DNA from: Prevotella sp.
GTDB taxonomy: Bacteria; Bacteroidota; Bacteroidia; Bacteroidales; Bacteroidaceae
Direction of reading: 5' to 3'
Assembly: GCA_017428925.1 (NCBI GenBank)
Contig: JAFRPY010000023.1
Span: 1-45,984, forward strand
DNA length: 45,984 nucleotides
The notes under the pieces were generated by a model. That model was not told the origin of the DNA. It did no database searches and was given only the letters and a program-made list of their open reading frames with translations. Position numbers and translations under genes: made by a program. Each line of letters starts with the position of its first letter. Position 1 is the stretch's first letter. This document shows, piece after piece, positions 4,756-45,917 of this stretch.

Positions 4756-4923
4756 GGTGGTTTTTATTTATTCGCAACAGCTCCCCTCCCATGTAGGGGA
4801 GGGGTTAGGGGTGGGGTCAGTATCTTCTTTATTGACAGGATATTACAGACCCCTCCCCCAGCCCCTCCCCTTGGAGGGGATGGGAGCGGCTGCGCTGTGT
4901 TTTTGCTATTTATAGAACATACC
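4756..4923. repeat. Left arm of long inverted repeat
   Basis: Starting at GGTGGTTTTTATTTATTCG, this arm holds two GC-rich palindromic elements (4781-4816 and 4850-4886) separated by the linker CAGTATCTTCTTTATTGACA and ends in GCTATTTATAGAACATACC. The reverse complement of every block recurs in the same order at 5773-6035. The arms bound an 849-base segment (4924-5772). Confidence 0.85.
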
Positions 4924-5016
4924 AAAATTATATTTAGAATTATATACAGTAGAGGTGATACGAAAAATTTTATACTTAATTTTAAATTTAATTTCGAGGG
5001 CGTAGCCCGACCAATA

Positions 5017-5168: not shown

Positions 5169-5189
5169 GGGCGGAATCGTATTCCGCCC
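5169..5189. repeat. Perfect 9-bp hairpin in gene-free region
   Basis: GGGCGGAAT (5169-5177), loop CGT, ATTCCGCCC (5181-5189). It lies at the edge of a more GC-rich block (about 5165-5400) that has no recognisable gene. The only frame across it (minus strand 5157-5435) shows no family match I recognise and no ribosome binding site. No T-tract follows. Confidence 0.65.
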
Positions 5190-5426
5190 AAACTCACTGG
5201 GCGGGCAGGCTGTATCTTTGCCACCGCATGGCTTCCGGACGACTGCGATTGCAGAACGGCAGAATGTCAAGATAATTCCGAATTTTCGTGGGCTGTGCGT
5301 CGCGTGAAAGTCACCATTCGCACATTTGCCGCCAAATACGCGAGTTTTCAGCAATGTTCGTAACTTGCTGGTAACGAACGTTTTACGCGAAAAGTCCAGA
5401 TTACATGCTTTCCTTAGAATATTTCC

Positions 5427-5558
5427 AGACTTCAAAAGATAGGCTTTCAGACTTCAATTGGGTGTCAGTTGGAGTCTGAAAGCCTTTTATTCTGACTTTA
5501 TTTGCTTATCATTTGAAGTCTAAATCCTGGTCATTTGAAGTCTAAATCCCCGTTTTTC
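5427..5558. repeat. 22-base-period array A (six units)
   Basis: Units start at 5427, 5449, 5471, 5493, 5515 and 5537, exactly 22 bases apart. Units 1-2 begin AGACTTCAA; units 5-6 begin GAAGTCTAAATCC, the reverse orientation of the same core; units 3-4 are weaker. Array C (45786-45917) shares period and core, and array B (31615-31746) shares the period with a different core. The array ends 140 bases before the -33 box of the nitroreductase promoter. Function is unknown. Confidence 0.8.
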
Positions 5559-5697
5559 GCCGAACAGTTATCCATGATTTGACCATTAATAACAAAAAAA
5601 GTTTCGGAAAAGTTCAAATCCAGAGCTATTTCCCTGCTGATGTTGGATGTTAATTTGTCGTGGTTTTTTCGGAATAAAGACAAGTAACGTTTCAAAA

Positions 5698-5772: not shown

Positions 5773-6035
5773 GGTATGTTCTATAAATTGCAAAAACACA
5801 GCGCAGCCGCTCCCATCCCTACATGGGGAGGGGCGGAGGGAGCCAACATATTCCCATTCCCCTACATGGGGAGGAGCTGGGGGAGCCAACATACTCCCCT
5901 CCCCTCAAGGGGAGGGGAGGGGGTGGGGTCTGTAATATCCTGTCAATAAAGAAGATACTGACCCCACCCCCAACCCCCTCCCCTACATGGGAGGGGAGGG
6001 GCTGCGCATGATTTATCGAATAAATAGAAACCACC
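5773..6035. repeat. Right arm of long inverted repeat, with GC-rich elements
   Basis: This is the reverse complement of the left arm: GGTATGTTCTATAAATTGC, then ACACAGCGCAGCCGCTCCCA, GC-rich palindromes, TGTCAATAAAGAAGATACTG, another palindrome and CGAATAAATAGAAACCACC. Compared with the left arm it carries about 85 extra bases (about 5820-5905) made of further copies of the CCCTACATGGGGAGG palindrome separated by GGAGCCAACATA. It lies in the leader of the nitroreductase gene. Confidence 0.85.
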
Positions 6036-8435: not shown

Positions 8436-8439
8436 ATTT

Positions 8440-8551
8440 TTGAATTTAGAATTTAGAGTTTAGAATTTAGAGTTTTTGCTTCGCAATTTTTGAATTTAGA
8501 ATTTAGAGTTTAGAATTTAGAGTTTTTGCTTCGCAATTACTAATTTGGAAT
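8440..8551. repeat. AT-rich tandem repeat, left flank of four-helix gene
   Basis: The words GAATTTAGAATTTAGAGTTTAG and AGTTTTTGCTTCGCAATT recur as two nearly identical tandem blocks of about 50 bases, and a third partial block runs into the 3' end of the four-helix gene, supplying its last codons. The same family occurs at 8935-9000 (inverted) and 14497-14577. Confidence 0.8.
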
Positions 8552-8926
8552 TTAGAGTTTAGAGTTTCCCATATTATTACGTTTGGTTTTAATGATGGAA
8601 ACAAGAAGACGCTTAATCTCTTCACAATCAGGGAAAATAGAATTGAAGTGTTTTTCGTCTATATCGCCGACTGTCCTAAGCAAACGGAGCCAGTAAAGGG
8701 TTTCGTTGCACTCTTTTAAAGAAATATATAGCTTAGCCAGAAAATCATTGTCACTTATGGCACATTCTGCTTCCGCAAAATTAGCTCCAATGCCCATTCC
8801 ACTGCGAACCAATTGATCGGTAGCAAAACGTCCTTTTCTTTCCTTATCCAAAAAGCGACACAAGTTGACAACCCTTGCTGCAAACAAGAGACATTTCTCA
8901 TCAACCATTTTGCCGAAATCGCTCAT
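8552..8926 (-). CDS. S23/IVP-type four-helix bundle protein
   Basis: The 124-residue protein matches the four-helix bundle family first described from 23S rRNA intervening sequences: an early FAARVVNLCRFLDKE, the central QLVRSGMGIGANFAEAE motif, and KLYISLKECNETLYWLRLL. The family's function is poorly known; some members assist diversity-generating retroelements (Avd), but no reverse transcriptase or variable repeat is present here. It separates the ExuT-like gene from kduI and is bracketed by AT-rich repeats on both sides, which suggests it arrived as an insertion. The C-terminal NSKL is encoded by the flanking repeat. Confidence 0.85.
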   Translation of the reverse strand: MSDFGKMVDEKCLLFAARVVNLCRFLDKERKGRFATDQLVRSGMGIGANFAEAECAISDNDFLAKLYISLKECNETLYWLRLLRTVGDIDEKHFNSIFPDCEEIKRLLVSIIKTKRNNMGNSKL

Positions 8927-31579: not shown

Positions 31580-31614
31580 AACGCATGTCAGATGCCATCG
31601 TCCGACTTGTAAAT

Positions 31615-31746
31615 CATAAGCATTCGAATTGTAATTTCAATGAAATTGCAAAGCAAAATCAATTAAATTGCCGACCAATTTCAATTAAATTGGTGAGCAA
31701 TTTAATTGAAATTACAACTCGGAAGATAAGGATTGGCAATCAGGAT
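31615..31746. repeat. 22-base-period array B
   Basis: Units at 31615, 31637, 31659, 31681, 31703 and 31725. The core of the central units is CAATTTCAATTAAATTG-like, itself an inverted repeat (CAATTT ... AAATTG). The core at 31677 (AATTTCAATTAAATT) and the next one at 31699 (AATTTAATTGAAATT) are exact reverse complements, exactly 22 bases apart. The spacer letters GAGC/GACC before CAAT recur in array C. The array ends about 135 bases before the -33 box of the CotH-protein promoter. Confidence 0.8.
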
Positions 31747-45546: not shown

Positions 45547-45785
45547 CAACTTTTTTTTCAATTCCCGATATATATCCCTAAAAAAGCCGCAGCCAAGGTT
45601 CCAATTGCAGAACCACTGCCCCCCATTCGCAGAACACAAGATCACCTTTTGCGGATATTCAAAATTCCCGACATTTTCACTTCAACAATTCATTGAAAAG
45701 TAGAAAAAGGGAAATGGGATTTCGGCGGATTCTGTGTCTTTGAAATGCAAAAAACCAGCATCCGCCAAGCAAATCATCAGCATTT

Positions 45786-45917
45786 AGACTTCAATTCCTG
45801 TTCATTTAAAGTCCAAATGATAAGCAATTAAAGTTCGGATAATGAGCAATCAGACTTCAACTGACGGTCAGTTGAAGTCCAAAAGCCTATGATTTAAAGT
45901 GGTTCATCCGAGAAATG
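45786..45917. repeat. 22-base-period array C
   Basis: Units at 45786, 45808, 45830, 45852, 45874 and 45896. Units 1 and 4 begin AGACTTCAA; units 2, 3, 5 and 6 begin (A/G)AAGT, the opposite orientation. The unit ends read TCATTT, GCAATT, GCAATC, TCAGTT, TGATTT. The same core and period occur in array A at 5427-5558. The rest of 45547-45785 has no gene or family I recognise; only short frames without support cross it. Confidence 0.8.

Follow-up and report, generated by a model that had tools for sequence, protein, structure and literature searches.

A 22-bp-phased array with reversed units is part of a MITE-like intergenic repeat family in Prevotella

How does a tandem array keep an exact 22-bp phase when some of its units lie in reverse orientation? 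The question is raised by array A (5427–5558) of the window, the stretch of 45,984 nt of Prevotella DNA analysed here. Its six units start at 5427, 5449, 5471, 5493, 5515 and 5537, a spacing of exactly 22 bp. Units 1 and 2 open with AGACTTCAA, units 5 and 6 with GAAGTCT, and units 3 and 4 with the degenerate sequences GGAGTCT and TGACTTT. Over the plus-strand stretch 5415–5560, direct autocorrelation was best at lag 22 (z 7.0; runner-up among lags 8–40, lag 16 at z 2.7) and reverse-complement matches were best at modulus 22 (z 15.8; runner-up among moduli 14–31, 3.7). Lag 22 rose far above the controls, which were mononucleotide shuffles of the same stretch; the exact spacing and the flip of the core between units 1–2 and 5–6 without loss of phase, as described in the initial annotation, are both borne out. 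A single long hairpin occupies the middle, built from units 2 and 3 and the end of unit 1. Array C (45778–45908, minus strand), found again by the search of the genome and in alignment A1, has the same core, period and flips, also as claimed (direct lag 22 z 6.5, inverted modulus 22 z 16.6); as it lies on the minus strand, the unit order of array A is read backwards. A third array with in-phase flips, array B (31600–31745), has a core of the CAATTTAATTGAAATT type, unrelated to that of A (lag 22 z 8.2, inverted modulus 22 z 14.3), and a profile search with the left-block model R3 found no conserved left block alongside it. The window thus holds three 22-bp arrays with in-phase flips.

Is array A an isolated tandem array, as it had been taken to be? 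The genome of the window (G000; 3.56 Mb, 122 contigs) indicates otherwise. Array A gave 40 local matches in this genome, 15 of them long (at least 80 bases, 72–82% identity, perhaps counting the window's own two). In alignment A1, 18 places have an array of the A type with a shared unit order and align along the full length of the module, and 15 of them also have a conserved block on the left. The three that lack the block (copy C, C80 and C5) all lie at or near contig ends; in a further copy, C62, the left block is present but is itself cut by the end of its contig. Since the 18 dispersed places align along the module, the flips belong to the fixed build of an element that has been copied and did not arise here as separate events. 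What is conserved is the 22-bp period and the surrounding element, and it is the latter that the initial annotation missed.

The repeat of which array A forms one module is dispersed, intergenic and non-coding; here it spans approximately 5265–5659 and consists of a conserved left block (~120 bp), the array and a conserved right zone (~100 bp). Alignment of the copies in this genome and a search for terminal sites place the left end at TGTCAAGATAATTC (5265–5278, plus strand), one half of a palindromic terminal motif. The left block, or block B (5269–5389, plus strand; alignments A3 and A4), is an imperfect palindrome with a core like YGCAAATACGCGAG, and is matched by R3 at 94.6 bits (E 8.6e-16). 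In alignment A1 the right zone covers 5561–5659 on the plus strand, ending in TTGTC, and 45670–45777 on the minus strand for copy C, where block B is not recognisable, R3 has no match and the contig ends at 45984. From block B to the right end, 13 of the 15 full-length copies measure 391–394 nt, and the other two 381 and 414. Upstream of the left end, the alignment of copies revealed an extension common to most subfamily I copies of this genome (5184–5220, plus strand), made up of the inverted repeat CCGCCCAAACTCACTGGGCGG (5184–5204) followed by TATCTTTG (5213–5220), in which we presume a resemblance to the Bacteroidetes -7 box. By eye, such an extension is not common upstream of the elements read in other genomes. 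A coding origin was considered and set aside: the frame over block B is partly open, being interrupted by a 1-base gap in four of the 16 rows of alignment A3, the copies share no start, and six-frame reading found no frame of at least 45 codons over block B common to all 15 copies. Moreover, 83 of the 88 loci with a gene on both sides have no overlapping long ORF, as judged by naive ORF calling with several copies per genome. The repeat is thus short, non-coding, multicopy and intergenic, the traits of a MITE.

A model of the left block alone (R2), built without array sequence, gave at least 30 matches in the same genome, 16 to subfamily I and 14 to more distant copies. The latter comprise seven of the TTCCTTATCTTTTGCTCATCAA type and an eighth apparently cut short, three CAATTAGACTTT-like, one mixed and two ambiguous; direct lag 22 was best in 13 of the 14 (not in C107) and inverted modulus 22 in ten. 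The units of subfamily II in this genome appear by eye to lie the same way round, and six of seven of these copies have an inverted signal at modulus 22, as has G093. Only a few arrays (C7, C6b, G143 and G238) have the direct 22-bp period without the inverted signal. The number of units differs between copies (e.g. C97). Solo terminal sites may also be scattered through the genome: at up to two mismatches there are 78 matches, about ten of which are ends of elements, compared to 24 for the reversed pattern.

Does the period extend beyond this genome? Taking the E-values of models R1–R3 as the rough values they are, R2 had matches at E<=1e-3 in 23 of 249 genomes of the genus, the window's own included. 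In the 230 nt downstream of the left block, lag 22 was the best of 33 lags in 19 of the 22 other genomes, with a mean z of 5.32; every other lag from 8 to 40 stayed at or below 0.94, and the upstream control at lag 22 gave -0.12. This set comprises 42 of 46 loci, as stretches shorter than 120 nt were left out of the lag and modulus tests, for which mononucleotide shuffles again served as controls. The exceptions are G178 (best lag 21), G161 (17) and G011 (16). Reverse-complement folding of the same stretches gave a mean z of 9.64 at modulus 22 (next 1.54), which was best in 17 of the 22 genomes, the others being G178, G011, G054, G143 and G238. A wider left-block model, R3, built from 36 sequences, matched 63 of the 249 genomes at E<=1e-5, the own genome included, and among 247 genomes drawn from the order the own genome alone. 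Twenty of the 40 newly found genomes were examined; lag 22 was best in 18 (mean z 6.09; exceptions G075 and G165), which brings both sets together to 37 of 42 genomes. Neighbouring lags were low in the two sets (0.77 and 1.51 at lag 21; 0.38 and 0.66 at lag 23). Lag 11 was weak as well (0.94 and 0.34), which makes simple curvature from A-tracts spaced one turn apart improbable as a cause. In a collection of 84,980 species genomes, 51 stretches contain an exact 20-mer of the left block, carried by Prevotella, Prevotellaceae, Hallella, Hoylesella, Leyella and one Bacteroidaceae bacterium. Lag 22 was best in 16 of the 19 named genomes with enough sequence (not in RUG414, L268 and RUG515); several of them are of the same species as genomes already counted, so they do not make a third independent set. 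Cultured species with elements peaking at lag 22 include Leyella lascolaii khD1, Hallella colorans and Hoylesella timonensis. As a separate observation, RUG414 holds three copies of what looks like a different repeat (L229, L232 and L270), which share the 20-mer and have no 22-bp array and surroundings unlike those of the family.

What changes between genomes is the array sequence. By BLAST at E<=1e-3, array zones are similar in 39 of 2273 pairs between genomes and in 73 of 73 pairs within a genome, while 820 of 2525 between-genome pairs match in the left block, a figure favoured by the choice of loci on left-block similarity. The array of a sister copy, L012, had no match in 39 other genomes (23 of the same genus and 16 of other families). 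A longer sister copy, L014, had a match of only 50 bases in one of 149 other genomes of the genus, among the four candidates scored per genome. Units of the A type are present in a sheep MAG, Prevotella RGIG5985 (L235, L259, L261 and L263). In one orthologous element of two related MAGs (L241/L262), identity was 0.90 in the left flank, 0.75 in block B, 0.50 in the array zone and 0.79 in the right zone; lag 22 is the peak in each of the two arrays. In three further orthologous pairs (timA/timB, L246/L256 and G129/L234) the arrays have stayed similar (0.89–0.99), and turnover is therefore not seen in every pair. The expectation that related genomes would carry such arrays holds: arrays of 22-bp period with units flipped in phase occur in most of the element-carrying related genomes examined, but their sequence is not shared across the genus. 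The family has one architecture, an exact period, in-phase symmetry and an array sequence that is for the most part specific to a lineage. Copy numbers range from one to dozens and are mostly minimum values, few candidates having been scored in each genome.

Based on these observations, we tentatively propose that the family is a MITE-like repeat whose array serves as a platform of phased, putative binding sites for a fast-evolving partner. The elements are ~400–550 bp long, non-coding and intergenic, are scattered across Prevotella sensu lato, and in about half of the genomes have a right end with TTTTCTTGACA or a related motif. The array would present phased, roughly symmetric sites to a sequence-specific partner, which may be a mobilising enzyme or a host protein. 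Such a partner would need its sites two helical turns apart on one face of the DNA, would tolerate either orientation, and might change its specificity quickly along with the array. The in-phase flips could arise when template switching, or pairing between units, turns a quasi-palindromic core around its own centre, out-of-phase products being selected against. The 22-bp phase is invariant while unit sequence and unit number vary, and this is most easily explained by recognition of spacing on the double helix. Among the points that count against the platform, two turns of B-DNA fall slightly short of 22 bp, and the terminal motifs are not universal. The initial annotation had suggested phased binding sites or a repeat maintained by some process; the period data fit this suggestion, and the sites themselves are inferred, no binding protein, transposase or autonomous copy having been found among the loci read. 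With more reserve, we consider it possible that these are genus-wide, fast-evolving phased arrays, in which spacing and symmetry would be selected, the sequence of the sites replaced and a recognition protein co-evolve with them. Such arrays might be akin to satellite or centromere-type sites of eukaryotes, carried here by a dispersed bacterial repeat.

Why should the spacing matter? Repeats usually keep their sequence, whereas in 37 of 42 genomes here the spacing is kept while the array sequence differs. This points to a reader of the period rather than of the letters, or to a race of specificities between repeat and partner. Additionally, the element is a marker family for genome evolution in Prevotella.

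Symmetry and spacing mostly go together, and a folded single strand therefore remains the main alternative to recognition of phased sites on the duplex. The array would then act as a transcript or a single-stranded DNA intermediate folding into hairpins of 22-nt modules, as a structured RNA or a hairpin-bearing mobile element might. In its favour, the in-phase symmetry is widespread, and in the central hairpin of subfamily I 97.5% of the cells are paired over 18 copies, with a covariation of 0.244 compared to 0.171 in shuffles, a value reached by none of 500 shuffles. As related copies inflate such a count, the covariation of these 18 is suggestive and falls short of proof. G.T cells exceed A.C cells in the array stems of subfamily I (43 to 8), G082 (75 to 34, some places being included twice) and G136 (16 to 3). 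Covariation and the G.T bias suggest that a single-stranded structure is kept at least in subfamily I. In all remaining sets, however, G.T and A.C are about equal (103 to 110 summed), and we rejected a wobble signature common to the genus. Array zones fold better than mononucleotide shuffles, with a mean z of -3.7 (42 genomes, each represented by the plus strand of one locus), yet eight of the 42 fold no better than z -1.5 and all eight still peak at lag 22. The palindrome of the left block is likewise two-sided: 70.2% of its cells are paired, as opposed to 25.0–41.1% when the sequence is slid, but covariation is not above shuffles (70.2% paired versus 69.1%). Rfam yielded no gathering-level match over the window and four copies, and one chance-level match at E<=1 over seven other loci, and a known RNA family was discarded on these grounds. 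On balance we regard a single-stranded role for the array as rather unlikely across the family.

How do the elements move? Their dispersal is most evident in G082, which has 82 R2 matches at E<=0.1 and 23 at E<=1e-3, as against one in G161 (75% complete). All 36 G082 loci, representing 29 distinct places, match a G082-specific profile, some places being counted twice in that comparison. The 19 places that were kept have readable end motifs, so that their ends match by selection; 16 of these elements measure 422–434 bp, the others 329, 396 and 408, and they run from a TATGAATTTTCTTGACAA-like to a TATGAATTATTTTTACAAA-like sequence, the two ends being direct repeats (some places again stand twice in the set used for the ends). 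Flanks mostly differ, although the left flank is common to two places and a stretch on the right to four. A search for target-site duplications in these 19 distinct places of one genome gave nothing above background (best z 3.2 over 500 offset pairs). Across genomes, TTTTCTTGACA is present at the right end in 22 of 45 (3 in shuffles) and TGTCAAGAAAA, with up to two mismatches, on the left in 11 of 46 (0 in shuffles); in the opposite sense, TGTCAAGAAAA is found on the right in 8 of 45 (5 in shuffles) and TTTTCTTGACA on the left in 6 of 46 (0 in shuffles). Many copies of the window's genome have a TTGTC-like sequence at both ends, but those of G082 do not. No clean empty site was recovered among the loci compared: a locus of G067 orthologous to the L247 copy lacks the element and is too diverged for the junction to be placed, and G161 was rejected as a near relative of G082 since the 98% match spans only 383 bases around the element. 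A phage or plasmid origin was also rejected, as viral contigs contain no stretch with the exact 20-mer and a plasmid collection no match to a subfamily I copy. We infer that transposition spreads the copies, the enzyme being provided in trans.

Might this enzyme be a REP-associated (Y1, HUH) transposase? REPs are dispersed extragenic palindromes of 20–40 bp with lineage-specific sequences and a possible trans-acting transposase, RAYT. The Prevotella elements resemble REPs, REPINs and BIMEs with RAYT in being dispersed extragenic palindromes, in their lineage-specific sequences and in a possible transposase acting in trans; they differ in length, the repeated unit being ~400 bp with a 22-bp-phased array. 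In this alternative, block B would be the recognised hairpin and the elements passengers like REPINs or like PATEs of the IS200/IS605 type. Several copies start after TTGTC and end in TTGTC, as a pair of cleavage sites could. In G143, a gene for a 326-aa REP-transposase-like protein (L298:2275-3255) lies upstream of an element on the same strand, 150 bp separating the two from the stop codon onwards, and in G014 an element lies ~260 bp upstream of the frame of a Y1 gene. The G143 protein has relatives 82–87% identical in G082 and G009; it matches the NCBIfam REP transposase model at 38 bits and its G082 relative at 33 bits, below the cut-off of 80. Against such a partner, the Y1 domain is found in 13 of 20 genomes with the element and in 5 of 14 without it, and seven of the 20 element-bearing genomes have no match at E<=0.001, although some assemblies are incomplete. 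Several families are represented among the Y1 proteins, and G009, which has no element at E<=1e-5, likewise carries the G143/G082 type. As no Y1 gene tracks the element, the case for a Y1/RAYT partner is weak and we judge it improbable. Among 638 ORF translations, no neighbouring gene family recurs under more than five genome labels. Two further observations concern the neighbourhood. At one syntenic spot, G157 has an element (L086) and G183 a Y1 gene (L305:3045-3872), with flanks 75–78% identical, which may be a coincidence. In 58 of 88 loci of the genus the gene on the right is directed towards the element, but in a separate G082 set this holds for 11 of 21; as the bias is missing there, we draw nothing from it.

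Could the array instead be a mutational by-product of a passive repeat, its 22-bp units created and made uniform by slippage and by template switching at quasi-palindromes, with no selected function? Template switching at a quasi-palindromic core by its nature yields in-phase flips, the variable unit numbers seen in copies such as C97 would be expected, and the array has diverged more than the ends in the orthologous element of L241 and L262. However, neutral slippage gives no reason for lag 22 to prevail in 37 of 42 genomes despite replacement of the sequence, or for lags 21 and 23 to stay low, and we find such an origin hard to credit. Chance or plain duplication of one unit in tandem has practically no likelihood left, given a signal far above shuffles and a unit order common to 18 dispersed copies.

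How does a family of phased, putative sites relate to known systems? The 22-bp iterons of plasmid R6K are tandem binding sites arranged as direct repeats beside the rep gene at the origin. The Prevotella arrays share with them tandem, here putative, sites at 22-bp spacing, but are dispersed, contain units reversed in phase and, for a subfamily I copy, have no plasmid match. A search of the open-access literature, with subscription papers and preprints outside its scope, found no description of the family. The nearest described element is BrickBuilt of Porphyromonas gingivalis, which, as far as the accessible part of its description goes, shares the plan and differs in unit length, ends and a narrower reported range. 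BrickBuilt is an intergenic, non-coding MITE with 19 copies in P. gingivalis ATCC 33277, in which a central 23-nt minisatellite lies between a non-repetitive leader and tail and long stem-loops are predicted; it is reported there from P. gingivalis and P. gulae (PMC4596501). In that account, as here, the element is intergenic, non-coding and multicopy, has central units of near-identical length between non-repetitive ends and predicted long stem-loops, and has a species-restricted sequence. The period differs: BrickBuilt units measure 23 nt, whereas lag 23 reached only the low values given above and 22 is the period in Prevotella. BrickBuilt units are direct repeats, with no mention of flipped in-phase units in the accessible part of PMC4596501, and its terminal inverted repeat is GAGACCTTTGCA-like (IS5-like; Table 2 of PMC4596501), in contrast to the TTGTCAAGAAAA-like ends and in-phase reversed units found here. 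Compared with the range given in that source, the Prevotella family spans one large genus, over which the period is kept and the sequence replaced. We therefore describe it as a minisatellite-bearing MITE-like repeat whose distinctive, putative property is selection on the period with turnover of the sequence. Two other repeats were noted in the window. A G+C-rich repeat of the CCCCTCCCC/GGGGAGGGG type, with a conserved GTATGTTCTATAAAT end, lies in inverted orientation on both sides of the array A element (4800–4925 and 5774–6005), and a 50-bp tandem repeat with TTTAGAATTTAGAG-like units is present in 2.7 copies at 8436–8567.
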